Of a stretch of 38,812 nt of DNA, positions 1 to 20,136 are shown in pieces. This DNA is from a virus. Position 1 is the stretch's first letter. Each line of letters begins with the position of its first letter. The translations under genes were made by a program, and so were the position numbers. Under the pieces are notes generated by a model. It searched no databases, was not told the DNA's origin, and saw only the letters and a list, made by a program, of their open reading frames with translations. The DNA lies in the IMG/VR virus record IMGVR_UViG_3300045003_000194, positions 1 to 38,812 of that record, one strand, 5' to 3'.

Positions 1-127
1 TCCACCGGTTTGCGATTGGGTTTGGTTACCACCGACAACGATCGATATCGCCGGCCAAGCATTGCCATCCGGCCCGGTAGTCTCACCGCCCGGAGCTTCC
101 AGCAAAAATCCTTGGGAATTGAAATTG
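1..127. repeat. Terminal redundancy, left copy (circular contig overlap)
   Basis: These 127 bases are identical to the last 127 bases of the window. The length matches a common assembler k-mer, and the coding frame crosses the join intact, so this is the overlap of a circularised contig rather than a biological long terminal repeat. True unit length is 38,685 bp. Confidence 0.95.
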
Positions 128-1188
128 TTGCTGACGGAAATCGAATCGTTGGCGAACAGGGACACCGTGCCCCCGGAAGAAGATCCGTTGGCACCAGAGT
201 TGGAATAGGTTAGCGTCCCGTTGCCCGTCGAGAGCACCTTGCAGCGCGCACAGTTGTAGCTGGAATCCGTGACGCCGGCGACTTTGATATAGACGCCAAT
301 TGGAAAGACGAAGCCTCCAGTGTAGGGCGTGAACGTGAGCGTCGAAACGTTGCTTGAACGCGATGTGGTCGTGATGGTTTGTGCTGCCAGGCTGGCATTT
401 TGGCCGATGGCAACGTTATTGCCGTTGGTCTGCGCCCCAACAATGAGGCCGCGGTTGTTTTGCAGCCAGCCCACATCCCCGGTATTTACCGCCTGCGGAA
501 TAGCCAAATTGATCGAGCCATCCGGCCCGCGCAGTAAAATGAGCGCATCCCCACCCGCTGCGCTGCCCACTTGTAGCGTAGGCACGCCAGTTCCGCCAAG
601 GCCAGCATCTCCGTAAAGGAAATTTGCTGCCGTGGTGCAAGCCGAAGAACCATTCAGGAAGAGCACCCCATTGGCTGTCGAAACTAAAGGGATGCACCCG
701 CCGCTGCTGGTAAAGTTGGCGGTGAGCGCCACCGCCGCGGCCGTGAGCGTGGATGTCAAACTCTGCGAGCTCCCGCTGATCGTGACCCCGGTCACCGTGA
801 AACACACCGGCCCTTTGCCAAACGCGGGCTGCACCGTGCCCTGTGTCGAGCACACCGTGAAAGTCCACGTGCTCCCGCCCGGCGAAAGCTGCGTGTTGTC
901 CGCCAGGGTCAGCGTGAATTTTCCGTTGATATCGAGGCCTGTGGCCTGTGTGGGCTGAATGTAAACCTGATTGTTCGAAGAAAATACCGGGGTGCCGCTG
1001 GCCACGATGCGGCTGGCGATCGTGCCGTAGGAATAGGGCAGCCCGTTGGGATCCGTGACCGTGCCGCTCACCGTGGTGAACTGCGCCCAAGCTGGCGCGC
1101 AGCCCAGCACGATGAGAAGGCACAATGTGCGCCATATCCCCCGCCCCCACGACGGGTTGAGGCGCGCAAAACGAGAATTACTCTTCAT
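1..1188 (-). CDS. Exported fibre/spike-like protein, N-terminal part (continues at 38305-38812)
   Basis: No stop codon interrupts this frame from the ATG at 1188 down to base 1, and the same frame continues across the circle join to the stop at 38305, giving about 522 residues. The ATG overlaps the stop of the upstream gene (ATGA). The N-terminus is a signal peptide: basic start, hydrophobic LCLLIVLGCAPAWA, then QF at the mature end. Next comes a carboxypeptidase-regulatory-like module (FTTVSGTVTDPNGLPYSYGT) of about 130 residues that is clearly paralogous to the start of the protein at 3889-6288. The rest is low-complexity, Gly/Ser/Thr/Asn-rich and probably beta-structured, and it ends in GSVWKCF like many phage fibre tips. 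I infer a receptor-binding fibre or spike. The Sec signal is unusual for such a protein. It is the last gene of the minus-strand arm. Confidence 0.85.
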   Translation of the reverse strand, partial: MKSNSRFARLNPSWGRGIWRTLCLLIVLGCAPAWAQFTTVSGTVTDPNGLPYSYGTIASRIVASGTPVFSSNNQVYIQPTQATGLDINGKFTLTLADNTQLSPGGSTWTFTVCSTQGTVQPAFGKGPVCFTVTGVTISGSSQSLTSTLTAAAVALTANFTSSGGCIPLVSTANGVLFLNGSSACTTAANFLYGDAGLGGTGVPTLQVGSAAGGDALILLRGPDGSINLAIPQAVNTGDVGWLQNNRGLIVGAQTNGNNVAIGQNASLAAQTITTTSRSSNVSTLTFTPYTGGFVFPIGVYIKVAGVTDSSYNCARCKVLSTGNGTLTYSNSGANGSSSGGTVSLFANDSISVSNNFNSQGFLLEAPGGETTGPDGNAWPAISIVVGGNQTQSQTGG

Positions 1189-1589: not shown

Positions 1590-1603
1590 GTGTGAATTCT
1601 CCT

Positions 1604-3889
1604 TCACTGCAGCATAACCCCGATCGAGCGCCCAGCGGCTACCGCGCCTACCGGATTTAAAGTAAAGGTCGCCGTCACCGATGTGGTGGAATTCACCGTC
1701 ACCACGCATGTGCCATTGCCCGCACATCCACCCCCGCTCCAGCTGGTGAAGCTATAGCCAGAGCCCGCCGTCGCTGTAAGCGTGACCGAAGTGCCTTGAT
1801 TGAAGATGGCCGAACAGGTGGAGCCGCAGCTGATGCCCGTGGGCGCACTGGTGACCGAGCCCAGGCCCACTTCGATAACCGAAAACGTGTACTGAATTGT
1901 GTAAATACCCGTGACCGTGCTCCCGTCCAGCCAGCCGCTCTTGATGGAAATTGCTTTCAGCGTCTCCGATGCCGAGACGGTCACAGGCCCGCTGTAGAGC
2001 GTGCCATTGGTGCACGTGCCCGACCCGTTGCTCGCCGGTTGGCTGCCATCCGTGGTGTAGCAAGCGCCGACTCCTGCAATGGTGGTGATGGTGACGCTCT
2101 GTGCTCCCTGATACGTGCCCGGAGTTGGCGAGAGTGTAGGGCTGGGAGCCTGAAAGCTGTATGCCGCCGTGCCCACCGTCGAATCTGTATAGCCCGTGCC
2201 GCCCGCCACCGCGCTGAGTGTCAGGTCCACAGACACTGCAACTGGCGTGCTGTAGAGCGTGCCGTGCGCGCATCCGGTTGTGCCGTTCGTGCTCGGACTA
2301 GAGCCATCTGTCGTATAGCAAAGAATTGCGCCATTCGATGTCGTGGAAATGGCAATGTTCTGTGGTGCCGAGGATCCGTAATTGCCTGCCACCGGATTAA
2401 AAGTGGGTGTGTTCGCCGGCAGATTTCCGCCCCCGCCCCCCGTGAGAAGGATTGGAGCCAGGCCAACCGGCACCACTCCGCCGCTCACGTTATGCTGCAC
2501 TCCATCGAGCGTCGTGTATTTCGTGAAGCTGCCAGCGCTCTGATTGCTCACCGCCCCGCAGGTAGAAATCGTGGTGCCCGAGCAAGTGCCGGTCTTGTCG
2601 AACATGGCCAGGAAGCTTCCGCCCGTCGCCAGCGTTCCTGTGACGCTGTATACGTTGCCCACGTTTGTGTAGAGGTTGACCGTCGCCCCGATAAACCAGC
2701 CCGCCAGAATATTGTTGGCATCGCCCACGATCGACTGCGATGGCGGAAAAGATCCTTTATCCCACTGGTAGAAGTTTTCCTGTGCGATCGCCGGGCTGTT
2801 GAAGGAAACCATGAGCACGATTTCCGCGCCAAAGTATGCTGCCGCTGAGGCCACATTGGCTGGCACCGAGTTCTGTGTGTAACCCCATTCATCGTTCCAC
2901 AGCGGATAGGAGTTCAGGCTATCCGTGTTCATGACGCTCTGCGCTGCCTGCCAGGCATTGATGACGAGGCTTGGGTCGAGCGAGGTCTCGCCCTGCCCGC
3001 GCATGTGCTCATCCACGATATCGAAGGTCTGTGTGCCCGTGACCGTCTGCGCGCTCCAGGAGCAGGTTTTGCCGGAATAAGTTGCGCCCGCGGGCGGGGT
3101 GATGGTGATGTTGCGCGCCGGCGCGTTAATGGAGGTGATGTCAAACTGATGGAAGTAGCCCGAGCCCGTCATCGAGTTCACGTGGCCATCGAGTGACACC
3201 ACGCGCGAGGTCGGATCGATGCAGCGCGTGAGATTCTTCATGTCCCACGCCATCAGCACCAAGTTTTTCAGGCTGCCCGTCTGCCCTCCGCAAATCGCGC
3301 CCGTCGCCTTACACCAGAAGTTATTCGCGTCCGCCTCGTTCCACAGTGACCAGTACTTAATGTGTCCTTTGGTGTTGGCCCCACCGGAATAGCGAATGGC
3401 TAATTGCCCCACGTAATTCAGCCACCATGCATCCGCTCCTGTACCGTCGTAGTTCAGATCGTTCGGAGGTGCGCAGCCCGAGGGCCCCGGGTCGGTGCAG
3501 CCCGAAGGCGTGCCCGCCGCGGCAAATTCCGGCGTGGCCCCGAAAACGTAGATGCTGGGCATGGTGCAAGCGGGGTTCGCATCCACGCTGGTGCCGAGCA
3601 CCCAATCAAGTTTGGCGAAACTATAGCCCGTGGTATCGGTCGGAGACGCGGCCGAGAGTTCCACCTGATCCCACTTCACCCCGTCATCCCACAGCCGGTT
3701 GCTGTTAAACACCGCCTGCCCTTGCGTGAGTGTTTGCGGACACCAGGGATGCGGCTGGGTGGGATTCCCGTTCGGCGAAATCATGTTGGTGGAGGAGCCA
3801 AAGAAAGAAGCTGGCACCGTGTTGGTTTGCGCGCTTGCGCCGGCGCACGCCAGCAGAGCGAAGGCGAAAACACTTACTAGGCGCCGCAT
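1604..3889 (-). CDS. Exported clan GH-A-like glycoside hydrolase with CHB_HEX_C and InlB-like repeats
   Basis: Protein of 761 residues starting at the ATG in a TAATG overlap with the stop of the upstream gene. Residues 1-20 are a clear signal peptide ending ASA before QTN. The catalytic part (about 25-460) has the two hallmarks of a (beta/alpha)8 clan GH-A glycosidase: WNE near residue 185 (acid/base at the end of strand 4) and WNDEW near 334 (nucleophile at the end of strand 7), as in GH5/GH39-like enzymes. Two chitobiase C-terminal-like repeats follow (each with CYTTDGS and a TLYS...PV segment), then an InlB-type repeat containing TATAGSGYSFTSWSGGGC. I infer a secreted polysaccharide depolymerase or spike enzyme acting on host capsule or wall glycan. 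The substrate cannot be read from the sequence. Confidence 0.85.
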   Translation of the reverse strand: MRRLVSVFAFALLACAGASAQTNTVPASFFGSSTNMISPNGNPTQPHPWCPQTLTQGQAVFNSNRLWDDGVKWDQVELSAASPTDTTGYSFAKLDWVLGTSVDANPACTMPSIYVFGATPEFAAAGTPSGCTDPGPSGCAPPNDLNYDGTGADAWWLNYVGQLAIRYSGGANTKGHIKYWSLWNEADANNFWCKATGAICGGQTGSLKNLVLMAWDMKNLTRCIDPTSRVVSLDGHVNSMTGSGYFHQFDITSINAPARNITITPPAGATYSGKTCSWSAQTVTGTQTFDIVDEHMRGQGETSLDPSLVINAWQAAQSVMNTDSLNSYPLWNDEWGYTQNSVPANVASAAAYFGAEIVLMVSFNSPAIAQENFYQWDKGSFPPSQSIVGDANNILAGWFIGATVNLYTNVGNVYSVTGTLATGGSFLAMFDKTGTCSGTTISTCGAVSNQSAGSFTKYTTLDGVQHNVSGGVVPVGLAPILLTGGGGGNLPANTPTFNPVAGNYGSSAPQNIAISTTSNGAILCYTTDGSSPSTNGTTGCAHGTLYSTPVAVSVDLTLSAVAGGTGYTDSTVGTAAYSFQAPSPTLSPTPGTYQGAQSVTITTIAGVGACYTTDGSQPASNGSGTCTNGTLYSGPVTVSASETLKAISIKSGWLDGSTVTGIYTIQYTFSVIEVGLGSVTSAPTGISCGSTCSAIFNQGTSVTLTATAGSGYSFTSWSGGGCAGNGTCVVTVNSTTSVTATFTLNPVGAVAAGRSIGVMLQ

Positions 3890-6288
3890 TATTGCCACCT
3901 TCGGATCAAGGCCGAAACTTTCGCCGCTGTCGTGCCCCCGCCGACCCATTTGCCAGCAATCGCGGTAGCCGAGTTGTCCACATCGAACATGTAGCAGCCG
4001 GCATACTCGCCCGCGGCGCTTGTGGTAAAGGTCAGCGCCGGCGACGCAACCCCGAGTTGCGACAATGGCACCGCCTGATTGACTTGACTGACGCTATTTG
4101 AATTCTTGTAAGAGACGGTGAAGCCGATCACGCCGGAGGTTGCTGAGGAGACCGAAGCGTCATAACAAAATTCATAAGTAGCTGCCGTTGCTGCCGGCGT
4201 TAGAGATATCAGCGAACCATCCGCCGTGCCGGTTTCCGCTTTTTGCGAGGTTGCGGCCCGCGTATAGGTAAAGCCGAAAGCCGCTGTTGCTTCCCCATTC
4301 CACTTGTTAAAGAAGTTGTGCCCGGAATCGATGGTGATGTTGGCCGTGCTCGCCAATTGGTTCGCGCCATTGGCATACAAAAGATTCCCAGAGGCCAGCG
4401 AGCCACCCGTGTAGACCGTGCTCGACGTCGTGCCGAGGACCCATTCCGTGCCATCGTAAATCGCTTCATAGATTCCGCCCGCCGTGATGTCGCCCGAGGC
4501 TCCGAGTGCGGCCACGCCACCCGTGGTGCGCTTGTCGAGAGCGATCGCACCATAGGCCGATCCGCCGGCAGGTGTCACATTCAGAGTCGACGCACCGGAA
4601 GAGGCATTGCTCGCCTTGAAGCGAACTGTCAAGCCGGTTGCGATCGAACTAGGGAAGCCGTTGCAAGTGACCGCGTAGGCGTTCGCTGCTCCGGTGTCGG
4701 CCGCGTAGCACGTGATCCAGGTCGATGAGCCCGCATCCTTGATTCCACCATTGCCATCGCCGATGATGGCGTCGGCTGCCGTCGAAGCGCCTCCACTAGC
4801 TGTGAAGTACGCGGTGTCGGTGCCATACGCCGTGGTCACATTCGCCGGCGTGGAATTTTGCAGCGAGATGGCTCCACCCGCAGTAAGCGACAGTGGCCCA
4901 ACGGCTGAAAGCGCGCCGCCATTCGTGGTGGTAGCACAGGTGGTGCAGCCATAACTTGGTCCGGTAGCCGTTCGGCTGATGGTGATGGGAGAGGTGACGC
5001 CCGTCGCTTGCTCAGTCACGTCCGCGGCCCAGTTGTTCGCCGTCTTGGGATCAACAAAGAGGACCGCTTCTTGTCCTGCCTGCAAAACCAGTGTCGCTCC
5101 AGCGGTGCCGCCCGAACCTGCCGAAATCGTCCATGTGGTCGGAGTGATGGTGACTGTGTTTGTCGTGTTATTCGCCAGCTTGGTGGTGCAATTCGCAACC
5201 CCAAGCGTGCTGGGCGTAGGCAGAGTCACAGCAACTGCAGCCGCGCCCGTATAAACCACGCGCTGCGGGTTGCAATCCGTTGATGCAATCGTGTCGGTTG
5301 TTCCTGTGACCGAGCGTCCACTGATTCCCGGCAATAAAAATACCGGTGCCACTGCCGCGCCGCTGGCCGGAATGCTGGCAAGCACCTGTGGCACCCCATT
5401 CGGAGTCGTAGCCCCTGCCAGTCGCGTCGCCGCTCCCGCAGCCCCGCCATAGAGGACGTCGCCCAGTGTGGTCATGGGATTGGCGAATCCCGTAATGGAA
5501 AACATGGTCAGGCAGGGATTCGGAGCGCTTGCCGTGGTGTAGCCGTACGCAAATCCATTGGTCGGGCTGAAGCCATTGCAGGGCGGAACCGCGCCGAACA
5601 GGGCAACGTTGGGATTCGGATAAGTACCGGAGAGTCCGCCACCCGCACTGCCACTGGGCGCAGCCGTGACGCTATTGAAGGTTCCACCAAGCGTGATGGT
5701 GGTGCCATTGATGACCGTGGTGGCTGCATTGGCGATCGAGGAATTAGCCAGCGGAAACGTGATGCCGGTATCGGTGAGGCTGGTTCCCTTCGCATCGTTC
5801 CAGATGGCAATGTCGCCGATGGTGGTGCTGCCCGGCCCACTGACCGTTCCACTTCCACCGATAGTTGAGGTCAGGGAGAGCGCTGCCGCATTCAGGGTGG
5901 TGCTGATATCCTGCGAAGCGCTGCTGATCGTGACCCCGCTGACCGAAAAACAAATCGGCCCTTTGCCTAAACTGGGCTGCACCGTCGATCCGCCCGAGCA
6001 CACCGTGAAGCCCCACGTGGTGCTGTTCGGCGAGAGCAGCGTGTTGTCCGCCAGTTGCAGGGTGAACACGCCATTGATGTCGAGTCCGGCCGGTTGAATC
6101 GGCGGCGTATACGGCAGGCCATTGATGGTGGGAGTGGCCGAAGTGGTTAGCGTGGCCGAGATAGTGCCGAAGGAATAAGGCAGGCCGTGGGGATCTTTGA
6201 CCGTCCCTGTGACCTGAGTAAACTGCCCGAAAGCCACTGCGCTTGCAAAAAAGAGCGCCCACAAAACCAGTAGTTTCTTGCCCGCCAT
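3889..6288 (-). CDS. Large exported fibre/spike-like protein
   Basis: Protein of 799 residues. The ATG at 6288 has AGAGGA 8 bases upstream. A signal peptide (LLVLWALFFASAVAFG) precedes QFTQVTGTVKDPHGLPYSF, a module of about 130 residues shared with the protein that crosses the window edge (1-1188). The middle is a long Ser/Thr/Gly/Ala-rich beta-type region with repeats of the form GDVLYGG and GNLLYANGANQL, typical of phage fibre shafts. The last 130 residues look like a compact beta-sandwich tip (CYMFDVDNSATAIAGKWVGG). I infer a second receptor-binding fibre or spike. Its stop is overlapped by the start of the glycosidase gene, so the two are probably translated together. Confidence 0.85.
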   Translation of the reverse strand: MAGKKLLVLWALFFASAVAFGQFTQVTGTVKDPHGLPYSFGTISATLTTSATPTINGLPYTPPIQPAGLDINGVFTLQLADNTLLSPNSTTWGFTVCSGGSTVQPSLGKGPICFSVSGVTISSASQDISTTLNAAALSLTSTIGGSGTVSGPGSTTIGDIAIWNDAKGTSLTDTGITFPLANSSIANAATTVINGTTITLGGTFNSVTAAPSGSAGGGLSGTYPNPNVALFGAVPPCNGFSPTNGFAYGYTTASAPNPCLTMFSITGFANPMTTLGDVLYGGAAGAATRLAGATTPNGVPQVLASIPASGAAVAPVFLLPGISGRSVTGTTDTIASTDCNPQRVVYTGAAAVAVTLPTPSTLGVANCTTKLANNTTNTVTITPTTWTISAGSGGTAGATLVLQAGQEAVLFVDPKTANNWAADVTEQATGVTSPITISRTATGPSYGCTTCATTTNGGALSAVGPLSLTAGGAISLQNSTPANVTTAYGTDTAYFTASGGASTAADAIIGDGNGGIKDAGSSTWITCYAADTGAANAYAVTCNGFPSSIATGLTVRFKASNASSGASTLNVTPAGGSAYGAIALDKRTTGGVAALGASGDITAGGIYEAIYDGTEWVLGTTSSTVYTGGSLASGNLLYANGANQLASTANITIDSGHNFFNKWNGEATAAFGFTYTRAATSQKAETGTADGSLISLTPAATAATYEFCYDASVSSATSGVIGFTVSYKNSNSVSQVNQAVPLSQLGVASPALTFTTSAAGEYAGCYMFDVDNSATAIAGKWVGGGTTAAKVSALIRRWQ

Positions 6289-6315
6289 AAATCCATTCCT
6301 CTTCTGCGAGAGGTC

Positions 6316-7323: not shown

Positions 7324-7327
7324 CTCT

Positions 7328-8648: not shown

Positions 8649-9455
8649 TCAAAACTGCGCATAACTCACCGAAATCGTAGCCGTGGCCGTGATGGCTCCC
8701 GTGGCCACGCACACCGCATGCCCCGTGGCCTGTGTGCGCGCCAGCGCGCCCAGCGTATTGCCAATGAATGGCAGAATTTGCGGCGTGGTCGAGAGCACCT
8801 GCAGCTGCCACAGGGTTTGCACCACGCTCGCGCAGCCCGCCGCCGTGCCCTCTTCTAAAACGACGGTGCCCGTCGTCGTGGCCGCGCCAAAGCTGATCGA
8901 CATTCCACAGATGTAAATATTGGCGCCAGCAAACACGCCCACCAGCGTGGTGGTGGTAGATTGCGCCGGCTGAATGATGATGGTTTTGTCGCACGCCACG
9001 GGCGAAGTCGGCCCATTGCTGCCGAGCGCCGCTGCCGCAAATTCAATGGGGGCAGCGACTGCCGTATACCAGGCGCTAATCGATCCCGCGCCGTAATTGC
9101 TGACTGCGACGCGCACGCCGTCGTAGTACCCGCCCGCCTGCAGCACATGGCATCCGGTATCGGTGACGCTATTTTGACCGTAGGACGCGGAGGCGATCGT
9201 GGTTGCATTGGAGAAGCTTCCGCCCGGGCCCGCCTGCAGGCTGATTGTGCCGCTGAATCCCGTGGTGCAGTAGGCCAGCAGATGCGTAGACTGCCCGAGG
9301 TTTTGCAGCACCGGGCTGTTCACGTTGGCGCTTTGGTTGGTAAATACGGTGACCGAGACCGTTTGATTGGCCACCGTGCCGAGAAACTGCGCCTGTGCTG
9401 CCATCGCACAAAGCAGCAAGCTTACGAGCGCCAGTTTTGTGCTTCTCACACCCAT
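8649..9455 (-). CDS. Exported beta-rich protein, possible virion decoration
   Basis: Protein of 268 residues. A signal peptide (LALVSLLLCAMAAQA) precedes QFLGTVANQTVSV. The mature part has two beta-sandwich-like halves, each with one or two Cys pairs that could form disulphides in the periplasm: about 25-140 with GSFSNATTIASASYG, and about 145-268 with VACDKTIIIQPAQSTTTT. It overlaps the capsid-like gene upstream by 10 bases, so it lies at the end of the capsid-like block. I infer a surface or spike protein. It has no enzyme motif. Confidence 0.75.
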   Translation of the reverse strand: MGVRSTKLALVSLLLCAMAAQAQFLGTVANQTVSVTVFTNQSANVNSPVLQNLGQSTHLLAYCTTGFSGTISLQAGPGGSFSNATTIASASYGQNSVTDTGCHVLQAGGYYDGVRVAVSNYGAGSISAWYTAVAAPIEFAAAALGSNGPTSPVACDKTIIIQPAQSTTTTLVGVFAGANIYICGMSISFGAATTTGTVVLEEGTAAGCASVVQTLWQLQVLSTTPQILPFIGNTLGALARTQATGHAVCVATGAITATATISVSYAQF

Positions 9456-9982
9456 AGATTGTCCGTCTCCATGTCGCGCGGATAGAGAAAGCCCACCAGT
9501 CGTCCGCCTGCTAGCTGCCCCGCCAGAGCCACCGCCACGTTTTTCACCACGATGGTGACCACTTGATTTTCGAAAATGCGGAAGCCCGCAATCTCCACCG
9601 GGTTCGAAGGGTTACCGAGCGAGGTCAGAATATTGTCGTAAGACGTCGCCCCCGGAGGTGGCGCGCCATCCACCAGAATCTGCCACACCACCGCGCCCGA
9701 ACCTTCCACCCATCCCCCGCCCACGAAATTATTGGCGATTTTTTTGATGATGCCGTGCCGGCCGAGCGGCACCTGAAATTGCACGATGTTCGCCTGCGCT
9801 GCGACCGCCGGCAGCGCTACGTAATTGGATTGGTCGAGATTCTCCCAGCGCTCCGGCGGCCACAGGTGAATCGGTAAACTCACCGGCTGAATCACCCGCG
9901 CCTGCGCTGGCTGGCTCGGAATGCCCGGCCCGCCGCCTGCCTGCCGTGCGATGCGCTGCGGAGTGATGACTTTAGAGCTCAT
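9446..9982 (-). CDS. Virion-protein candidate, beta-rich
   Basis: Protein of 178 residues with a proline-rich N-terminal arm (about 1-40) and a beta-rich core: QFQVPLGRHGIIKKIANNF, VVWQILVDG, RIFENQVVTIVVKNVAV, ending in RLVGFLYPRD. The pattern of short strands with a final GFLYP strand fits a jelly-roll or related beta-sandwich. The size is close to the small capsid protein of P23-77 (VP16, 173 residues), but this is a size argument only. It overlaps the preceding gene by 11 bases and the exported beta protein by 10. I infer a capsid or vertex protein. Confidence 0.65.
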   Translation of the reverse strand: MSSKVITPQRIARQAGGGPGIPSQPAQARVIQPVSLPIHLWPPERWENLDQSNYVALPAVAAQANIVQFQVPLGRHGIIKKIANNFVGGGWVEGSGAVVWQILVDGAPPPGATSYDNILTSLGNPSNPVEIAGFRIFENQVVTIVVKNVAVALAGQLAGGRLVGFLYPRDMETDNLWV

Positions 9983-10487
9983 TGGACAAGGTTCCTGTAA
10001 AGGGTGCGGACTGTCCGTACAGCGCGAGTTGCACCGTGTTGGCGACCGCTTCCAGGTTCTGCATCATGATCTGCATTTGCGACTTGGGCAAATCGAAACG
10101 GTAGGGCTCGCGCAAGAAAAACCAGGCCACCGGCCCCGGAGAATTTCCCCCACCCAGGTTGGGAAATTGAATGCCACGATCGTTCAATCGCCGCTGCTTC
10201 ACCAGGTCATAGAACTGTGCCCGGAATCCGCCCACGGTGTTCACACTGGCACTGCACCCGATCGCGAGCAGATGCCAGTCGCTCATCACATCCACTTTGA
10301 CGATGAGCGATTGCTGCGCCCCGATGACGCCGTTGACCACTTCCCAGCGCGGCTGATAGCCCGGCAGCCCAGGCGGCTCTTTTTCCGCCATGCGATAGAC
10401 GGAAGACTGCAGCGCCCGCAGGGGCAGCATGCGCGCCAGCGGATTCAAAAAGTCGGCGCGCAATGTCTTGATGTTGGCTTGCTGCAT
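9972..10487 (-). CDS. Virion-protein candidate
   Basis: Protein of 171 residues. The start at 10487 follows AAAGG by 5 bases; a longer frame to 10805 only shadows the next gene. It has a helical N-terminal half (TLRADFLNPLARMLPLRALQ), then strands, with FRAQFYDLVKQRRLNDRGIQ, VAWFFLREPYRFD and a final amphipathic stretch QIMMQNLEAVANTVQLALYG. It lies between two beta-rich proteins of similar size in the presumed capsid operon. Function inferred from place only. Confidence 0.6.
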   Translation of the reverse strand: MQQANIKTLRADFLNPLARMLPLRALQSSVYRMAEKEPPGLPGYQPRWEVVNGVIGAQQSLIVKVDVMSDWHLLAIGCSASVNTVGGFRAQFYDLVKQRRLNDRGIQFPNLGGGNSPGPVAWFFLREPYRFDLPKSQMQIMMQNLEAVANTVQLALYGQSAPFTGTLSNEL

Positions 10488-10498
10488 TGCGCCCTTTC

Positions 10499-10933
10499 TT
10501 AGTGCTTTGGTTTCGCCCAGAGCTTGAAGCCCGAGAAAACCACTTCCACCGTATTCGGCGCGCCCGATGTATCCGAAAACAGCAGCGTGTACGTGCGCGT
10601 CGCCGGCATAACAAAGGGAACACCCAGAGGCCACGCAGCTGCGGCTGCCGCAGTCCCCGCCCATAAGTCGATGTTGATGCCGTTGAAAGCGCCCGCCCCC
10701 GAAACTGCTGAAGCCGTCGTGCCGATAAAATCGCGCCCCGTGGCTGCTTCTTTCATGAGCACCTTGAGCAGGTTCGAGGTGCGCGAGGCTTTCAGCCACC
10801 ACCATTCGAAGTCGGCATCCGCCTGAATCTGGAATTGGTTCGGGTCTTGCACGGCGCTCGCCGGCACCACCCGATCGAGCACGTATTCGAAATACTGCCG
10901 CTCAAACTGATCGTCAACTTGAGTCGGGTCCAT
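10499..10933 (-). CDS. Virion-protein candidate, beta-sandwich
   Basis: Protein of 144 residues from the ATG at 10933, with AAAGTGAG 7 bases upstream; a GTG at 10945 is an alternative. Features include QIQADADFEWWWLKASRTS, a Gly/Ala loop, then PFVMPATRTYTLLFSDTSG and NTVEVVFSGFKLW. A final strand pair of the kind N-T-V-x-V-x-F-x-G-x-K suggests a beta-sandwich or jelly-roll structural protein. It is the first gene after the hairpin that follows the best major capsid candidate, which suggests lower expression than that gene. Confidence 0.62.
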   Translation of the reverse strand: MDPTQVDDQFERQYFEYVLDRVVPASAVQDPNQFQIQADADFEWWWLKASRTSNLLKVLMKEAATGRDFIGTTASAVSGAGAFNGINIDLWAGTAAAAAAWPLGVPFVMPATRTYTLLFSDTSGAPNTVEVVFSGFKLWAKPKH

Positions 10934-11889: not shown

Positions 11890-12420
11890 CTAGAATCGCG
11901 TTTGGAAACGCGAGCGATAGCGCGAAACGCCCAGCCCGTGGACGCCTTTCACAGGCGCCGGCGGAAGCATGGGAATGACGCGCCCGTAAGCATCCGAGGC
12001 CGTGGGAACCGGGAACGCCGAATTTACGTAGAGTCCCAGCCCAGGCACCGCGACGCCCGCCTGCTTGACCGTCTTGATCAGCGCCGCCAGGATTCCGCCC
12101 TTGAGCACTTCTTCGCCCGCGGGTGCGCCGGCCACTGCTTTGCCCACGAAAGAGGCCGCAATCGCAGCCGCGACTGTCGCCGCGACATCCAGCCATCCCG
12201 ACTGCCCCAGGAAGCTGGCGCCAAAATTCGCGCCCGCCATGCCCGCTGCATTCCAGGCCACATCTTTCACCACGGAGCCACTGACCCCGAAGGGGTTGTG
12301 GCGCCGGCGATGATGCCGATGATGATGTCTCGCCATTGTGCTTTCACCTCCTTCTGAGCCGCGCCCCGCGAAATAGCTCCGCGGCGTGTAGCTCGGATTG
12401 AAAACCCGGATTTTCGCCAC
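11890..12420 (-). CDS. Arg/His-rich hydrophobic protein, membrane- and DNA-binding virion candidate
   Basis: Protein of 176 residues from a GTG at 12420 with GGAGG 6 bases upstream. A second in-frame ATG at 12336 has a near-perfect AGAAGGAGGTGA 8 bases upstream, so a shorter form of 148 residues starting MARHHHRHHRRRHNPF is likely made as well. The His/Arg cluster is strongly basic. It is followed by small-residue hydrophobic stretches (DVAATVAAAIAASFVGKAV and GGILAALIKTVKQAGVAVP) that look like glycine/alanine-zipper membrane segments. A basic head plus a membrane-embedding body suits a protein that links packaged DNA to an internal membrane, as proposed for P23-77 VP11. That role is inference. 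Confidence 0.75.
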   Translation of the reverse strand: MAKIRVFNPSYTPRSYFAGRGSEGGESTMARHHHRHHRRRHNPFGVSGSVVKDVAWNAAGMAGANFGASFLGQSGWLDVAATVAAAIAASFVGKAVAGAPAGEEVLKGGILAALIKTVKQAGVAVPGLGLYVNSAFPVPTASDAYGRVIPMLPPAPVKGVHGLGVSRYRSRFQTRF

Positions 12421-12441
12421 AGCGATCCTCCGAAAACTTTT

Positions 12442-13155
12442 TTAGCCACCCAGCTGGAATCGTCCGCCGACGAAATACCCTTCCATCTGCTCTGGGTTCG
12501 AATCGTCCAGCAGCAAACTCAGATGCGTGCCCTCCGCATGGTTCACGCTGCCGCGAATGCGCCCGAATCCGCCTTGCGCCCCGCCCAGCATCACGTTCAT
12601 TTGCGCAATCGGGTGAATCACCCCGAACACATGCCCGTCGCGCGCCGTGATTTTGTCGCGCACCCGATCACCCACAATGGGGCAGCCCACCAAACTCTGC
12701 GCGATGCGTGGAGGCACGCAGCCTTTGCAGCCCGTCTTTACCGACTTGGGACAGGCGTGCTTCGCGTGCGCCGGAACCCAGCGCGGGTCAGGGATTGCCG
12801 GCAGTGGCGGAAGTCCGAAGGGCAGAAGCAAATCTTGCTGGTCGCGTGAAATCGCGAGAATTGGAGAAGCGTTGTAGCCCAGCCAGTCGAGCGTGATGGA
12901 CGCCCAGAGCAGCGCCTGTTTTTCGCTGAAGGGATGCAGGCCGGGTTGGTTGCGCAGCTCCGTCGCCTGTCGCGCATTCTGCCAACGTGTGCGCGACTGC
13001 GAGAGGCCCGCCGTGGACCGCTGCGCCTCAAACACCAGATTGGTCAATCGCCCGATGACGATGTAGTTTTTCTGCCGGATGGTCTCCTGCTGGATCTTGA
13101 TCCGGTCCGCCAGCTTGAACGTCGAAGGAACGATGACCGCTGCCGCTGTGCTCAT
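12442..13155 (-). CDS. Virion-protein candidate, family not recognised
   Basis: Protein of 237 residues, directly upstream of the Arg/His-rich protein gene. A short Ala/Val N-terminus leads to DRIKIQQETIRQKNYIVIGR and a helical region with RTRWQNARQATELR. A Cys-rich segment (HACPKSVKTGCKGCVPP) in the middle could bind a metal. The C-terminal part is Gly-rich with strands (MNVMLGGAQGGFGRIRG). It could be a second capsid-shell protein or an internal protein. No catalytic motif is seen. Confidence 0.6.
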   Translation of the reverse strand: MSTAAAVIVPSTFKLADRIKIQQETIRQKNYIVIGRLTNLVFEAQRSTAGLSQSRTRWQNARQATELRNQPGLHPFSEKQALLWASITLDWLGYNASPILAISRDQQDLLLPFGLPPLPAIPDPRWVPAHAKHACPKSVKTGCKGCVPPRIAQSLVGCPIVGDRVRDKITARDGHVFGVIHPIAQMNVMLGGAQGGFGRIRGSVNHAEGTHLSLLLDDSNPEQMEGYFVGGRFQLGG

Positions 13156-13234
13156 TACGTGTTGGCCCTCTCTTGGAGCCTCTGTGCTGTGTCCGGTTGT
13201 GCGTGCTGACCGCAGTGCCGGACGTTGAAAACTT

Positions 13235-13573
13235 TCACATTACATCGAAAACAATCTCATCTCGATATCGCTGCATCAATTCGTCATAAGGCTGGGACCA
13301 ATCGAGGTCACGCGCTATCACTTGCCCCGGTAGCTTCAGATTTGCGCTCATGCACTGCTCGCAGCGCACGCGGAAATCATTCGGGCAATTGCTGATTCCG
13401 TCACGCTTCCAGGTTCCACCGCGCGTGCCGTGATCAGGATGAAGCGCAGGCTTTCCGCACACTGCGCAGAGATGGCCCAACTGACAAAGCGAGCCGAGCG
13501 GAACGCTCACAACCTCACCAATGAAGGCTGAGCCATCGGTACTCACGCACGTTATTTCATCGCCCTCTTTCAA
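13235..13573 (-). CDS. HNH-like zinc-binding protein
   Basis: Protein of 112 residues. It starts at a TTG that overlaps the stop of the preceding gene (TTGA) and has GGGG 8 bases upstream. The N-terminal 30 residues look like a small beta barrel (DEITCVSTDGSAFIGEVVSV). Then come LCAVCGKPALHPDHG and VRCEQCMSANLK: a CxxC pair, an HxxH and a second CxxC in the order of an HNH/recombination-endonuclease VII-like zinc fold. The Asn position is unclear, so nuclease activity is uncertain. Unusual among the structural genes. Confidence 0.7.
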   Translation of the reverse strand: MKEGDEITCVSTDGSAFIGEVVSVPLGSLCQLGHLCAVCGKPALHPDHGTRGGTWKRDGISNCPNDFRVRCEQCMSANLKLPGQVIARDLDWSQPYDELMQRYRDEIVFDVM

Positions 13574-14748
13574 TTGATGATCCCCGCTTCTTCAATCCGA
13601 TAATCCCCGCCTTCCAGCAGCAACCGTTTCACTCGCACATCAAAGAGCACGGTCGGCCGCTCCCCGTTCTCTTCCCCAAAGTCGTGCCGCCAGGAATCCG
13701 CCTCTGGATGCGGCACATGTTCTTTGCGCTGCCGGTAGTCAATTCTTCGAGCCTCGCCGAGTTCCCAGAGTCCCTCTCCACGATCTCGTGCTCCGAAGAG
13801 CGCGAGGCCCAAACTTACATCCTGATCGCCGCCCACGAAATACATCTGCCGCGCCGATTCATCCCCAACTAAGATGGTTCCACCCGAGGCTTGAATCTGC
13901 ATTATCTGCCCACCCTTCACCGGCTTCACGTAGAGAGCAAGTAGCGTGCCAAGCTTCGCGTAGTCGCCCGCGCGCATGTGCGGTTCACTCATCACCGCGA
14001 TGCGATCAACCGCCTTGCCCGTGAATGTTTCCCGCAGCGCTTCCGCCGAGGGATTCCCGCGCTTACCCCAGTTGTGCCGCGATGCCGGTCGCAGCGTCGC
14101 GCCCTGTGGCAGATGCGGCCCGCGATGCCCCGGCTTGCGCGTGCACTGATATCCGCCGATCCTCGCCCCGCAGATCTCCGCAGGGTTGATAGGTAAGCCG
14201 TCCGCATCGTATTTCTGCTCACCGTACAATTCATGGAACACGCGCGCCTGTCGTGAATGCTTACCTGCAGCCCGCGCGGATTTCCGCAGCCCGCCCAGGT
14301 ATTCGCGCTCCTCTTGCCGCTTGCGCCGCACCCCCGCGCGGAAGCTGCGCCGCGACTCTGCCAATTCTTTCTTTGTGGGCTTCGATGGAGAGAAGCCGAG
14401 AAAGCTACCCAGCGAGTTAGTGCGTGCTTCCGGGTTGGTGCGAATGGTCACCTCGCCGCCCGGAATGGGAATCTTGATTTCCTGTTCTTTCGATGGCGAC
14501 GGATTCGCGCCCAGCACAATCAGGTCGCTCGGGTTGTGTGCTGGCTTCACCACTTTCTTTTTGCGCCGCTTAATCGGATTGGTGCGCGGACTCATGACGA
14601 TGTAGCGGTATCCGTGCCGCGTGGGCGTGCCCCGGATGAATGCGCCTTTGGTCTTGCGCTCTTTCGCCACCGCATCTTTCTTTTCCGCGAAGGCCCCATG
14701 GAACATGTAGCCGTAGCCCTCGCCCGCGTTTTTGCGCTTGCGGCTCAT
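13570..14748 (-). CDS. Basic protein with repeated Asn-Pro motifs and conserved C-terminal domain
   Basis: Protein of 392 residues starting at the ATG at 14748. The N-terminal 170 residues are very basic and carry repeated NP motifs (RTNPIKRRKKK, AHNPSDL, GANPSPS, RTNPEARTN). A small Cys/His cluster follows (ICGARIGGYQCTRKPGH), then RGNPSAEALRETFTGKAVDR, and a C-terminal domain of about 150 residues with alternating strands (GGTILVGDESARQMYFVGG and a final GGDYRIEEAGIIN). I know similar NPSAEAL...FTG proteins only as uncharacterised phage genes. It is the first gene of its operon section and may bind DNA. Function unknown. Confidence 0.75.
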   Translation of the reverse strand: MSRKRKNAGEGYGYMFHGAFAEKKDAVAKERKTKGAFIRGTPTRHGYRYIVMSPRTNPIKRRKKKVVKPAHNPSDLIVLGANPSPSKEQEIKIPIPGGEVTIRTNPEARTNSLGSFLGFSPSKPTKKELAESRRSFRAGVRRKRQEEREYLGGLRKSARAAGKHSRQARVFHELYGEQKYDADGLPINPAEICGARIGGYQCTRKPGHRGPHLPQGATLRPASRHNWGKRGNPSAEALRETFTGKAVDRIAVMSEPHMRAGDYAKLGTLLALYVKPVKGGQIMQIQASGGTILVGDESARQMYFVGGDQDVSLGLALFGARDRGEGLWELGEARRIDYRQRKEHVPHPEADSWRHDFGEENGERPTVLFDVRVKRLLLEGGDYRIEEAGIIN

Positions 14749-15604: not shown

Positions 15605-16102
15605 TCATAGTACCTTTGCCAGTACCAATGCACCGCCACCGAGCAGGGCAAGCCAAAACCACATCGGCAAACCGAGCGGACTATTCGGCGAACCGGGCGT
15701 GTAAACCACATTCCCCGCGCCGTAATAGCTGGCAACATTGGCAGCAGCTGGACCTGCCTGCGCTGCCTGCTGATCCGCTGCCGCTTGTGCGGCATCTATA
15801 ACCGATTGCGGATAGCCCGCTGCTTTTGCATTCTCCACCACGCTCTGCGGCCCCGATGCAATCACGCTAGCTGCGCATGCCTGCCACTTCTGCGGATTGA
15901 AATAAAAATCCCACGTCGAGCAAACATCAGCAACGTCTGGTGCGATAGGCGACGGCAAACTCAGAGCCGTCTGCACGCTGGGCTGAGATGAAAGCCAGTT
16001 CGTCAGAAATCCGCCAGTTGGATCCGTGGCGAATTGCCCAAGTCTCTGCCTGCGCATCCCCGTGGGGATGTTATCGACCGACATGTAGCCAGCACCACTC
16101 AT
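15605..16102 (-). CDS. C-terminally membrane-anchored protein
   Basis: Protein of 165 residues, ATGA-coupled to the small membrane gene upstream. The N-terminal domain has two Cys (VADVCSTWDFYF, WQACAASV), followed by an Ala/Gln-rich helix (VIDAAQAAADQQAAQAG), and a C-terminal membrane segment (PMWFWLALLGGGALVLAKVL). It is the last of a run of proteins of the same design (soluble domain, Pro/Gly/Ser linker, C-terminal helix). I infer a protein of an internal virion membrane. Confidence 0.75.
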   Translation of the reverse strand: MSGAGYMSVDNIPTGMRRQRLGQFATDPTGGFLTNWLSSQPSVQTALSLPSPIAPDVADVCSTWDFYFNPQKWQACAASVIASGPQSVVENAKAAGYPQSVIDAAQAAADQQAAQAGPAAANVASYYGAGNVVYTPGSPNSPLGLPMWFWLALLGGGALVLAKVL

Positions 16103-16245
16103 GCAAAACTCACTGTATTCGGACGCACTCCAGACATCATCTGCACTAGCGGATTGTGCTCATCCCATGGCTGCTGAAATTCGTACGCAGTAAACGCATA
16201 CGCTCCAACTCCAAGCAAGAGCAAAATTAACAGTGTGTCACTCAT
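16099..16245 (-). CDS. Single-pass small membrane protein
   Basis: Protein of 48 residues. ATGA overlaps on both sides fix its limits, and a longer frame to 16836 is only the shadow of other genes. It starts MSDTLLILLLLGVGAYAFTA, one membrane helix at the very N-terminus, followed by a polar tail. The only anchored protein of this block with an N-terminal helix. Size and form suit a small integral virion-membrane protein. Confidence 0.72.
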   Translation of the reverse strand: MSDTLLILLLLGVGAYAFTAYEFQQPWDEHNPLVQMMSGVRPNTVSFA

Positions 16246-16580
16246 CGCCGTTTCGAAATCAAAAGCAAAAGTGCAGCCGCACCTAGCCACGGCAACGCTG
16301 CCGAAAACAAACTCAGGGAACCGGTCTGAATCGCTGGAAATGAACCCGCGCTCTGCCCCGGCGTTCCCGCTGGCACGGCGTTCCCGTCCGCATCCATCCA
16401 CACCACTGCGTTCGGGTCGTTGCACAGCACCGGATTCCCTTCGGAATCGGCTGCCGAGACACAGCCCCGGAACACATTCTGCGCACCCAGCCCGCGCAGC
16501 CCAAGCCCCGCCATTGCCTTCTCTGGGTTTGTGAAAGGCCGAAACCCTTGCTGTGGCCGCATGTAGTGCACGTTCGGCAT
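16242..16580 (-). CDS. C-terminally membrane-anchored protein
   Basis: Protein of 112 residues. The N-terminus is basic and aromatic with a TNPEKAM motif. The middle has Cys residues and VVWMDADGNAVPAG. The C-terminal helix (LFSAALPWLGAAALLLLISK) ends in KRR, so the tail is probably cytoplasmic or DNA-facing. Closely similar in design to its neighbours; the FSAALPWL start of the helix recurs in the transglutaminase-like protein at 18889-19785, suggesting shared ancestry of the anchors. Confidence 0.75.
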   Translation of the reverse strand: MPNVHYMRPQQGFRPFTNPEKAMAGLGLRGLGAQNVFRGCVSAADSEGNPVLCNDPNAVVWMDADGNAVPAGTPGQSAGSFPAIQTGSLSLFSAALPWLGAAALLLLISKRR

Positions 16581-16784
16581 CTACTCTTCCTTCCGGTACC
16601 GCTTCAAAATTCCTATCAGCGTGGTGCGCCCGATGGCCAGCCGCTTCGCCGCCTCGCTCACATTCCCTTGGCACAGAATCATCGCGCTCTCGATCGCCTT
16701 GCGCTCCACCACGTGCAACGGAGTCACCAGCAAGGGCGCGATGCGTTCCACTAGTTCCATCGGCGGACGTTGCAGTAAACTCAT
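16581..16784 (-). CDS. Fis-type helix-turn-helix DNA-binding protein
   Basis: Protein of 67 residues, start fixed by an ATGA overlap with the gene upstream at 16781. Residues about 22-65 match the Fis/NtrC C-terminal HTH (HTH_8): ERKAIESAMILCQGNVSEAA, then KRLAIGRTTLIGILKRY, with the conserved GN..eAA..L.I.r.TL pattern. It has no receiver or AAA+ domain, so it is a stand-alone DNA binder. Its place in the middle of the membrane-protein block suggests either a late-transcription regulator that feeds back on this operon or a DNA-condensing virion protein. The first is more likely. Confidence 0.85.
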   Translation of the reverse strand: MSLLQRPPMELVERIAPLLVTPLHVVERKAIESAMILCQGNVSEAAKRLAIGRTTLIGILKRYRKEE

Positions 16785-17296
16785 CGCCGCTTCCCTCCGC
16801 TCGCCAAGAGCGCGACCAGAAGCACGCCCCCGCCAATCACCAGCCAGGTCGGCATGCCCATCGTGGTGCCCGACAGCCACAAACCCATGGACGATGGCGA
16901 GAGGGGAACCGCCACGCGCGGCGAAGGCGAAGGTGCCGTTCCCGCACCCACCGCGGCTGAAATCACATTCGCCAGCGGCTGGAAATTTGGCACGCTCACC
17001 TTGGAGCCGGACTGTGCCGCTTCATTGCTTTGCAGCCACGCGATGTCGGAAGGCGTCGCCTGTGCTGTCGTGTCCGCTCCGCTCGGCAAGGGCGGCCCGA
17101 TGAATCCGCCACCCGAAGGCGGTAGCACATCGGTCGGAGTCCACGCGGGCTGCTGCCAGAATGGCAGGCTGCCCGCGTCCGGCGTCGTGGCAAACGGGTC
17201 ATAGCCCGAACTGAAGACATCGGTCATGCCGTCATCGCCCAGCCCATGCAGGCGCGGGCGGATGTACGGCCCGGAATAGACGGCCACGCGGCTCAT
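16781..17296 (-). CDS. C-terminally membrane-anchored protein
   Basis: Protein of 171 residues with an ATGA overlap to the gene upstream. It has an aromatic/Gly N-terminus (VYSGPYIRPRLHGLGDDG), a long Pro/Ser/Gly linker, and a C-terminal membrane helix (TWLVIGGGVLLVALLASG) ending GKRR. Same plan as the neighbours at 16242, 17475, 18368 and 18889. I infer a virion-membrane protein with its linker facing the capsid shell. Confidence 0.75.
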   Translation of the reverse strand: MSRVAVYSGPYIRPRLHGLGDDGMTDVFSSGYDPFATTPDAGSLPFWQQPAWTPTDVLPPSGGGFIGPPLPSGADTTAQATPSDIAWLQSNEAAQSGSKVSVPNFQPLANVISAAVGAGTAPSPSPRVAVPLSPSSMGLWLSGTTMGMPTWLVIGGGVLLVALLASGGKRR

Positions 17297-17478
17297 TGCG
17301 CCCTCAATGGTTCAAAGAGTTTCCGCGCGGCAGCTTCTGCCCCCGGATAGTGCACCGAAATTTGCACGATGGCATACATGCGCTTCAGATCGTTAATCAT
17401 CCACCACTGGCATCCGCCTTCAACCGGAGCGCACAGGCTGTAACGCCCCGACTTCGAATTCTCGCCTCTGCGCTTCAT
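17293..17478 (-). CDS. Small soluble protein in the membrane-protein block
   Basis: Protein of 61 residues. ATGA overlaps at both ends fix the limits. Basic start MKRRGENSKSGRYSLC, then WWMINDLKRMYAIVQISVHY and AARKLFEPLRAQ. No membrane segment. It could be an assembly factor for the anchored proteins. Not recognised. Confidence 0.65.
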   Translation of the reverse strand: MKRRGENSKSGRYSLCAPVEGGCQWWMINDLKRMYAIVQISVHYPGAEAAARKLFEPLRAQ

Positions 17479-18371
17479 CGCAAAAACATCCAGGCCGCGA
17501 TCGCAGCCGCACCCAGCAAAAGCAAACTCGAAGAGCTTCCCCCGCCACCTAGCAGGGAACTGACCGTCCCCGAAACCGACGCAATCTTCGGCGGTGTGTA
17601 TGTGAGCGAATACCCCGAACGCAGGTTCGCTCCGTACTTCGATCCGTAGACCGTGCACACCTGAATCGTTCCCCCTTGGGGATTCGCAAAGACTTGCTGC
17701 GCCTGCAGCACGGTCGGATACAAATCTTGGCAGCCCACGCAGCACGTGGCCGTGCAACTTTTGTCGCACATGTGCCCGCCCGGAGTGCCGGTACAGGGCC
17801 CGCCCGGATTCAATTGCCCATTGCCGCAATTCGCGCCGCCATTCGAAGCATCCGCCGCGCCTGGCGCGCGCGTGTAGGGAGCCATCTCCGCGAAAAACTG
17901 CTGCAATAAAAGCTGGCACTGCTGTGCCGCTTGCGTCCCCGTGATGTTCTGGCTGGGATCCGAAGAATTCGCCGCCGCGAAAATCGCCTTGATGCCCGCA
18001 TCGAACGCTTGCACCGCCGAATTGATGGCCTGATTCTCTTGCGTGGCCCCTTTGACCCGCGCTTCGTGCGCCGACCACAATCCGCCGATGATGCCCACTA
18101 GAATTGCAATGCCCGCGCCGATGCCCGCCGTGAGCGCGCCCGCCGCCATTCCTGTGGCTCCGGTTGCGGAAACCGCTGCTGAAGCTGCGAACGGTGTGCC
18201 CACTTGTGCGCCGGCAGAAACCAGAGGCGTGATGTTGGTCGCGCCCAGCCATCCCAGTTGATGCAGCGGAATTTTCGGCGCGCGCGCGTAGTGGCCGAAG
18301 CGCGGCGCATGCGTCATTCCGCGCCAGCCTTGCTGGTAGAGCGGCACCGAGGGTAGAGCCACGCTGCTCAT
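17475..18371 (-). CDS. Cys-rich protein with two membrane segments
   Basis: Protein of 298 residues; the ATG at 18371 overlaps the preceding stop (ATGA), and the longer frame to 18773 is a shadow. The N-terminus has YQQGWRGM and LHQLGWLG repeats. A Gly/Ala-rich membrane stretch follows (about 60-90, GALTAGIGAGIAILVGIIGG), then a helical domain, a Cys-rich segment (GHMCDKSCTATCCVGCQDLY), and a C-terminal helix (SSLLLLGAAAIAAWMFLR). The Cys cluster could form disulphides in the periplasm or bind metal. I infer a virion-membrane or membrane-tube protein, the largest of the block together with its neighbour at 18889-19785. Confidence 0.75.
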   Translation of the reverse strand: MSSVALPSVPLYQQGWRGMTHAPRFGHYARAPKIPLHQLGWLGATNITPLVSAGAQVGTPFAASAAVSATGATGMAAGALTAGIGAGIAILVGIIGGLWSAHEARVKGATQENQAINSAVQAFDAGIKAIFAAANSSDPSQNITGTQAAQQCQLLLQQFFAEMAPYTRAPGAADASNGGANCGNGQLNPGGPCTGTPGGHMCDKSCTATCCVGCQDLYPTVLQAQQVFANPQGGTIQVCTVYGSKYGANLRSGYSLTYTPPKIASVSGTVSSLLGGGGSSSSLLLLGAAAIAAWMFLR

Positions 18372-18892
18372 CGCTTCCCCTTGAACATCCACAGCAGCGC
18401 GAACGCCGCCGCCCCCGCGATGCCCCAGTTGGGAATTCCTGCAATCAGCGTCTGCTCGGAAAGCCACGCGCCGAATCCGCTGGCCACGTTGACGCTGTTG
18501 CCCGCTGAATCGAGCACCGTCCCCGGTTGTGTCAGCTGGGGCGCCGTCTGATCCGCGCCTACGGCCACGCTCGGGGAGGGCTGCGGCGCGCCAGGCGTGC
18601 CGCCCGGAGCCGACACAACCGAGCCTGAAGATGGGCCGAGCGGAGGCGGCTGGGGGACCGTCGCTGTCGCGCCCGGATAGTTGCGCCAAATCGGAACGGG
18701 CATCACCGGAATCGGCTCCACAATGGGGAAAGGCCAGCGCACCGGAGGAGCGCCACAGCCCCACGCCGGACATGGCATCATGCCCTCGCCCGTGATGGTC
18801 GCTGCCCCGAGCCGCACCATGTGCGCTTTTCCATCAGTCAGCGTGCGCGGCGCAATTTCCCACGGCGCGCGATACACATATCGGCCGCTCAT
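18368..18892 (-). CDS. C-terminally membrane-anchored Pro-rich protein
   Basis: Protein of 174 residues, ATGA-coupled to both neighbours. N-terminal MSGRYVYRAPWEIAPRTL, a Pro-rich stretch (FPIVEPIPVMPVPIWRNYPG), a Ser/Gly/Pro linker, and a C-terminal helix (NWGIAGAAAFALLWMF) ending KGKR. The Pro-rich arm could extend through a capsid shell. Part of the anchored-protein block. Confidence 0.75.
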   Translation of the reverse strand: MSGRYVYRAPWEIAPRTLTDGKAHMVRLGAATITGEGMMPCPAWGCGAPPVRWPFPIVEPIPVMPVPIWRNYPGATATVPQPPPLGPSSGSVVSAPGGTPGAPQPSPSVAVGADQTAPQLTQPGTVLDSAGNSVNVASGFGAWLSEQTLIAGIPNWGIAGAAAFALLWMFKGKR

Positions 18893-19785
18893 CGCTTCAC
18901 CGCCACTAAAACCAATCCGCCAATCAGCAGCCAGGGCAATGCCGACGAAAACAGGGAACTGGAAATGGCATTCAATCCCCCATAGCCCGCCGCTGGCACC
19001 GCGTACCCGGGAGTGTAGGGAGTCATGAACGAGGCATAAGGGCTGCCGGTGGAAACTGTGGCCCCCGATGGCAGCCGCATCGCTGTGGGTTGCCCTGAAA
19101 CCGTGGCGATAATTCCCGGAATCTCTTGAATGCTTTGCGAGAGGATCGCATTCGCATCGATGCCTGAACCGTCATCGCCGAGCGAGCCCATGCTCAGATA
19201 CCCGGAGAGCCCCTGCAGCCGCGTGCACCCATTCATGTCCTGATAGGTGCCATCGGTGAGCGACCACACCCGCTTGCGGAAATAAACCGGAGGCTGTAAA
19301 CCGAATTGCGAATTTGGCCGCGCCGCATCGACCGCCACCCAGCGCCCCGAGCCTGCCGGCACTTCCACTTCCGTGTACACGTGCGAGAAATCGTTGGGAT
19401 AGTCGGGCTGCGCTGCCACCGTCACCAGACGCGCCGGATAACCCAGCGCGATCGCCAGCGCACCCATGAGCATGGCGATGTCGTCGCAGTCCCCCGCCCG
19501 CTTTTTCAGTAGCTCCAAGGGAGGCGTGAGCAATTCCTTGGTAACCGGGTCTTTGGTGTACCGGATATGCCCCTGCACCCACTGAAACAGGGAAAAAACT
19601 TCCCCGTAATCGTCATAAGCGGGAATATGCCGTACCAATTCGACCGAAAACCGGATGAATTGGGGATCATTCAGGGCTTGATCGATCAGCTTGCGCATCA
19701 GCCGCACGGTTTGTGCTGTGCCCGCATCGCCGTCGAGAAGGGGTGCGCGATAGCCGAGTAAGTTACCCGCGTGCTGAAGCCGCAA
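18889..19785 (-). CDS. Transglutaminase-like protein with C-terminal membrane anchor
   Basis: Protein of 298 residues starting at a TTG with AGAGAGG 8 bases upstream. Residues about 25-160 form a transglutaminase-like cysteine-protease fold with the full triad in order: Cys100 in KKRAGDCDDIAML, His135 in DFSHVYTEVEV and Asp153 in WVAVDAA. A linker follows, then a C-terminal helix from about 276 (FSSALPWLLIGGLVLVAVKR). The enzyme could cleave or cross-link peptide bonds in virion proteins or in the host wall peptide. It is the first gene of the minus arm, next to the divergent regulatory gap. A membrane-tethered enzyme of this type is unusual in a phage. Confidence 0.85.
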   Translation of the reverse strand: MRLQHAGNLLGYRAPLLDGDAGTAQTVRLMRKLIDQALNDPQFIRFSVELVRHIPAYDDYGEVFSLFQWVQGHIRYTKDPVTKELLTPPLELLKKRAGDCDDIAMLMGALAIALGYPARLVTVAAQPDYPNDFSHVYTEVEVPAGSGRWVAVDAARPNSQFGLQPPVYFRKRVWSLTDGTYQDMNGCTRLQGLSGYLSMGSLGDDGSGIDANAILSQSIQEIPGIIATVSGQPTAMRLPSGATVSTGSPYASFMTPYTPGYAVPAAGYGGLNAISSSLFSSALPWLLIGGLVLVAVKR

Positions 19786-20136
19786 AGTAGCGCCTCTCTG
19801 AAGCCGAAATCAACCAACGCGAAGAACTGGGAGAGAAAAGGGACGGAATGGAGTGATGGGAGTGTGCCTTGCCCGGCACCGCGCCGTTTGTCGCAGGCAC
19901 CGGGAAGGCCGCGCCACTTCGTCAGACCTGAAAATGAGCGCTTTCCCGAATCTTTGCAATAGTTTTGGTACAACACCGATTGCTGTACTAAGTGTTGTAC
20001 TGAGGTACACCCTCAAACACTCGCCTGTACCAAGCGCGAAAACCCCTTGTTTGCCTGTGGAAATCGTGCTTCAATGGCTCCAGAACACGAAATGCGCCGA
20101 CCGTTTGCGGCGAGCCGGAAACAGGGAGACCGTTTG
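19786..20136. promoter_or_regulatory. Divergent regulatory gap with GTAC operator-like array
   Basis: 351 bases without a convincing gene between the two divergent arms. It holds five GTAC sites (19968, 19985, 19997, 20005, 20027). The first and third belong to a perfect 9-bp inverted repeat GTACAACAC (19968-19976) / GTGTTGTAC (19992-20000), and the others have TGTAC or GTACA contexts. No strong -35/-10 pair stands out. I infer the main control region and possibly the replication origin, with overlapping promoters and repressor sites. Confidence 0.6.

Follow-up and report, generated by a model that had tools for sequence, protein, structure and literature searches.

Salisaeta phage SSIP-1 contains a membrane (PMC6356626), and its genome is a dsDNA circle of 44 kb (PMC6260650). 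For virus contigs, the authors of CheckV have described that the lengths of end repeats pile up at assembler k-mers and that circular templates are cut at random, with concatemers named as one cause of such repeats (PMC8116208). The window, i.e. the whole stretch of 38,812 nucleotides analyzed here, spans one entire IMG/VR record (IMGVR_UViG_3300045003_000194). It is probably the complete genome, circular or circularly permuted, of a member of an undescribed virus family that is most likely tailless and likely infects Acidobacteriota.

Bases 1-127 of the window are identical to bases 38686-38812, as had been read from the sequence in a first-pass annotation. No exact end overlap exceeds this length (tested to 5 kb), and a match of this kind lies far beyond chance; a search with bases 1-400 recovered the same two places. 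Removal of the second copy leaves a unique circle of 38,685 bp. In all likelihood the repeat is not biological but made by the assembler, since 127 is an assembler k-mer size; we take 127, 97, 77, 119 and 27 to be k values of common assemblers. The assembler would have followed a closed path of the k-mer graph, opened it at an arbitrary place within a fibre-like gene and output the final 127 bases (k = 127) in duplicate; the resulting repeat would have no biological role. With the k-mer overlaps described by CheckV (PMC8116208) the window shares the exact k-length repeat, the random cut and the single genome copy; no difference is seen, and the 127-base repeat is an ordinary example of its kind. 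It can serve as a worked example of a "terminal repeat" that is an assembly trace and is not to be annotated as biology.

The relatives come from protein-level searches of IMG/VR, for which the ATPase, the capsid candidate and a neighbour served as queries; whole records were read. Matching ends are present in 20 relatives. Including the window, the overlap is exactly 127 bases long in 11 of the 21 records, the remaining lengths being 97 (two records), 77, 119, 27, 123, 126, 152, 169 and 24 bases. The 126-base overlap is offset by a few bases and the 152-base overlap is at 99% identity, while the 24-base match of G013 sits in a low-complexity repeat and therefore counts for little. No similar pair was found among the overlap sequences of different records (21 records compared), and the 21 cuts are spread all round the common gene circle when the ATPase start is set to zero (Rayleigh p 0.47). 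A k length thus recurs with unrelated sequence and the cut position varies between relatives, as in k-mer overlaps; the same sequence at the same map position in relatives, as fixed direct terminal repeats would give, is not seen. Furthermore, the ATPase, g37.8, fibre-like and lysozyme genes, which flank the cut of the window, lie in one piece and in the same order in relatives. Because the overlaps are mostly k-like in length and unrelated in sequence, the cuts fall all round the circle and relatives read through the join, the map is circular and complete at 38,685 bp. The closed circle that had been deduced from the overlap is thereby retained as a circular and complete map; the repeat itself is no evidence of a physical circle, because its length equals an assembler k and permuted, terminally redundant linear DNA would look alike. 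The genomes of the family have circular maps of 32-39 kb and form two clades. In G007 (L030/L031, 33263-35046) a segment of about 630-670 bp next to the contig end is duplicated in diverged form (91%). Since about 20 other records share the complete map with the window, a gene that is not seen can be taken as truly lacking, a rare situation among metagenomic viruses.

On the 38,685-bp circle the minus strand holds a stop-free ORF of 522 codons, which extends from 1188 to 1 and, past the join, from 38685 to 38305, in agreement with the earlier reading that the fibre-like frame passes the join and that the linear cut splits a gene. The fibre-like gene is split only there. Almost every relative has its N-terminal domain, and the C-terminal 34-52 residues are shared with G023 (85%) and G029 (67%). 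In G029 this tip closely follows an N-terminal fibre domain that is a homologue of the one encoded at the left end of the window, an arrangement that the window reproduces only with the join closed, and the 522-codon frame is therefore a real gene. The join itself falls within a variable stretch of the gene, and no alignment with a homologue spans it. The features of the window are compiled in the table.

Table. Features of the window, numbered on the linear record
Feature	Position	Strand	Remarks
End overlap, first copy	1..127	.	k-mer-length duplicate of 38686-38812; exact identity
Fibre-like gene, 5' part	1..1188	-	residues 1-396 of 522; continues at 38685-38305; N-terminal domain conserved in relatives
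Second fibre-like gene	3889..6288	-	paralogous N-terminal domain
Lysozyme-like (SLT_3) protein, C-terminal hydrophobic segment	6316..6774	-	Pfam E 1e-22
CP2, capsid-like	9446..9982	-	conserved
CP3, capsid-like	9972..10487	-	conserved
CP4	10499..10933	-	related to CP3 (HHalign 90%)
Candidate major capsid protein, 256 aa	11030..11800	-	ATG start at 11800; weak eight-strand model
g11.9, g12.4, g13.6 of the module	11890..14748	-	conserved; small ORF 13235-13573 between the last two
Run of small proteins	15605..18892	-	several with hydrophobic segment
Transglutaminase-fold protein, C-terminal hydrophobic tail	18889..19785	-	Pfam; HHalign and BLASTP to SSIP-1 gp34
g20, first gene of the other arm	20047..21462	+	both clades and provirus
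HerA-type ATPase, PHROG-labelled terminase, accessory	27924..29684 (also given 27654-29684)	+	few relatives
Universal HerA/FtsK-like ATPase, candidate packaging motor	36182..37330	+	Walker A GQTQRAGKTT; mechanical ORF start 36107
Fibre-like gene, 3' part	38305..38685	-	residues 397-522; tip shared with G023 and G029
End overlap, second copy	38686..38812	.	exact identity with 1..127

The genes are arranged in two opposed arms which diverge at about 20 kb. Genes for lysozyme and for capsid-like, membrane and secreted fibre proteins occupy one arm, whilst those for recombination, replication and the ATPases occupy the other. Twelve genes form a module that is common to both clades and to a Terriglobia MAG contig, and is partly present in a provirus of an Acidobacteriota chromosome. 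It comprises, on one strand, the fibre-like gene, g8.6, CP2, CP3, CP4, the candidate major capsid protein (MCP) gene, g11.9, g12.4, g13.6 and the transglutaminase protein gene, and on the other strand g20 followed by the ATPase gene, with the gene order nearly always kept. Several proteins of the structural arm contain a hydrophobic segment. Several signal peptides of secreted type were also recognized by eye in the translations: apparent signal peptides start many proteins within 1-9455 and 24585-25064 (the fibre-like genes, g1.6, g7.6, g8.6 and the gene at 24585), and one of these starts has a lipoprotein-like box. Secreted fibre or structural-arm proteins are unusual for a virus assembling in the cytoplasm.

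AlphaFold prediction of the capsid candidate reached a pLDDT of 31.6 with an alignment of 9 sequences and of 51.5 with 24 sequences, the latter model showing eight strands. The solved structures nearest to this model include the viral jelly rolls of SH1, HCIV-1 and P23-77 VP16 with a best Z of 6-7, and the predicted resemblance is only a hint. Profile searches of the PDB with the capsid candidate, CP2 and the ATPase gave no relative, and no tblastn match to the capsid candidate, CP4, the ATPase or the transglutaminase protein was obtained in 50,697 phage records. In two records of the second clade the capsid candidate is joined by an additional, shorter homologue (L163:14774-15250 and L177:6977-7435), which covers model positions 53-209 and is located far from the main gene.

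Two ATPases have to be distinguished. One "terminase large subunit" PHROG label in the window (E 4e-11) falls on the HerA-type ATPase; the name of this profile, phrog_2666, may thus mislead annotation. This gene aligns with the packaging ATPase VP13 of P23-77 (97.6%), and its closest database relative is a "hera helicase" of a tailed phage equipped with a terminase, a portal and a tape measure of its own. A role as packaging ATPase was rejected for the HerA gene on account of this homologue in a terminase-bearing tailed phage and of the few relatives that carry the gene. The universal ATPase, to which PHROGs and Pfam assign no function, aligns with VP13 only at Walker A. Its family reaches contigs of tailed phages and of Thaumarchaeota and Bathyarchaeota MAGs (L092, L093, L102-L151). 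As a marker of tailless viruses it was rejected, since homologues are common in tailed-phage contigs, and for the same reason a packaging role of the universal ATPase is a guess.

The first-pass annotation had also concluded that the absences of terminase, portal and tail are real; for terminase and portal this holds in the window and its complete relatives. The formal test consisted of two Pfam families, Terminase_6N (PF03237) and Phage_portal (PF04860), which diverged versions could escape; neither gave a match in any of 19 family records. In a control set of virus contigs sharing only the universal ATPase, 12 of 23 match the terminase profile, the portal profile or both, and the test consequently works on environmental virus contigs. 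About 48 predicted proteins of the window were scanned against PHROGs, where no match to a portal or a major capsid protein and no convincing match to a head or tail protein was found. An HK97-fold major capsid protein likewise has no PHROG match, the model of the candidate being strand-rich but weak. The window contains no tRNA, Rfam match or tandem repeats.

Headful packaging, for which known phages employ a terminase and a portal, would be less likely for the family because neither is found. A virion DNA that is linear, circularly permuted and terminally redundant, packaged by the headful from a concatemer and closed only in the assembly graph, is nevertheless a minor possibility that deserves to be taken seriously: permuted cuts and k-length overlaps would be expected equally from such a molecule, and concatemers have been named as a cause (PMC8116208), whereas the genomes of SSIP-1 and P23-77 are circular. 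Unlikely is a strongly diverged tailed phage with terminase, portal and tail genes beyond the reach of profile searches. Both the universal ATPase and the HerA gene have homologues in tailed-phage genomes, and weak tape-measure PHROG matches (E 0.006-0.07) occur on two proteins, one of which is the lysozyme; the contrast between the family records and the comparison contigs in the profile test, the want of a convincing head or tail PHROG match and the absence of any long tape-measure-like gene from the window speak against it. The circular map, a tyrosine recombinase and the lack of a standard virus hallmark in PHROGs or Pfam would also fit a plasmid or another circular mobile element that is not a virus. 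This is very unlikely, as no replication-initiator or transfer gene is present among the proteins scanned, the universal ATPase has no match in PLSDB, and the window carries fibre-like genes, the lysozyme-like gene and the gene for a homologue of an SSIP-1 virion protein, besides giving a weak match to a spanin (E 0.021). A linear genome with fixed ends, for which the exact direct repeat at both ends would be a true terminal repeat, is excluded with hardly any chance left to it, since repeats of the same length in relatives have unrelated sequences at unrelated map positions, relatives are contiguous over the gene order at the join, and the permuted cuts refute it unless the window is unlike all its relatives.

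The preferred reading is a virus with a circular, or circularly permuted, genome, the virion DNA of which would be a physical circle. The family would form a tailless, probably membrane-containing particle without detectable terminase or portal, and the conserved HerA/FtsK-like ATPase would be the candidate packaging motor. A tailless virion is likely, as judged from gene content, the capsid fold model itself being poor (pLDDT 51.5).

Few characterised viruses are known to us from the phylum Acidobacteriota. A first genome scan with the capsid profile gave no match, whereas a profile search of 396 genomes of the phylum found two. One is the Terriglobia MAG contig, which at 34,655 bp is a full family member with a 169-bp end match. 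In the second Acidobacteriota genome eleven module genes, from fibre to g20, lie inside a 150-kb contig, flanked by genes for a MacB-type permease, truB and folE on one side and by a MiaB-type gene and a nearer ParB gene on the other. The ATPase was not found in the stretch of this provirus that was read, and the provirus is therefore partial or decayed. Since the provirus and the Terriglobia MAG contig tie the family to the phylum, Acidobacteriota are likely its hosts.

The tyrosine recombinase of the window (31551-32213, minus strand, Pfam 6e-36) is absent from all relatives. Within 31443-32213 it directly follows the first 34 codons of a plus-strand serine-recombinase gene, the start of which is present in many relatives; the arrangement suggests that a resolvase or invertase gene was disrupted by an insertion. 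By virtue of this recombinase the window may itself integrate. Further accessory genes vary among the members. A fused helicase-methyltransferase of 881 aa (32734-35379) is 87% identical in G004 and 76% in G008, is mostly missing in other close relatives, with only its ends left in G010, and adjoins a gene for an HNH nuclease that was found in the window alone. A DUF5131 protein is encoded at 26920-27939 (Pfam E 2e-66); about ten members of the family have it, among them the Terriglobia MAG contig.

Taken together, we lean somewhat towards a new lineage, at family or order level, of tailless, membrane-containing circular dsDNA viruses of Acidobacteriota that occur in soils both as proviruses and as free circles and possess their own capsid proteins, these being unrelated in sequence to any known family. 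No account of such a family came up in a literature search, although one may exist. The records offer a starting point for a soil-virus lineage without detectable terminase or portal, for which the provirus points to the host phylum.

In order to compare the family with known tailless viruses, its profiles were set against SSIP-1, P23-77, HHIV-2, PM2 and FLiP; besides gp34 and the HerA gene, none matched beyond noise. Corticoviridae (PM2) and Finnlakeviridae (FLiP) have, like the window, circular genomes without terminase or tail, but these measure 9-10 kb and their capsid proteins show no profile match. Among the Matshushitaviridae/Sphaerolipoviridae of the Halopanivirales (P23-77, IN93, HHIV-2), the genomes of P23-77 and IN93 are circular like the map of the window, small capsid proteins are clustered as are the capsid-like proteins of the window, and VP13 is the counterpart in the alignment of the window's HerA gene. 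In contrast, the window is twice the size and the HerA gene is accessory in its family. The capsid candidates have no profile match to VP16, VP17, VP4 or VP7, the resemblance in fold being weak at the Z values given above.

SSIP-1 differs from the window in its other structural proteins and its ATPase gp40, all of which score below 12% against the family profiles (gp43 left out), and its host is a member of the Bacteroidota of a hypersaline site and not of the Acidobacteriota. The transglutaminase protein of the window is homologous to the structural protein gp34 of SSIP-1 (HHalign 98.8%, E 9.6e-17; BLASTP 2e-14), and both transglutaminase-fold proteins carry a C-terminal hydrophobic tail. The transglutaminase core is a common domain, and the link could therefore reflect shared domain use. 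SSIP-1 and the window further have in common a circular dsDNA of similar size (43.8 kb vs 38.7 kb), an ATPase gene and a record in which no terminase or portal is annotated. Judged from sequence comparison, SSIP-1 thus appears to be the nearest known particle, by way of this one structural protein.
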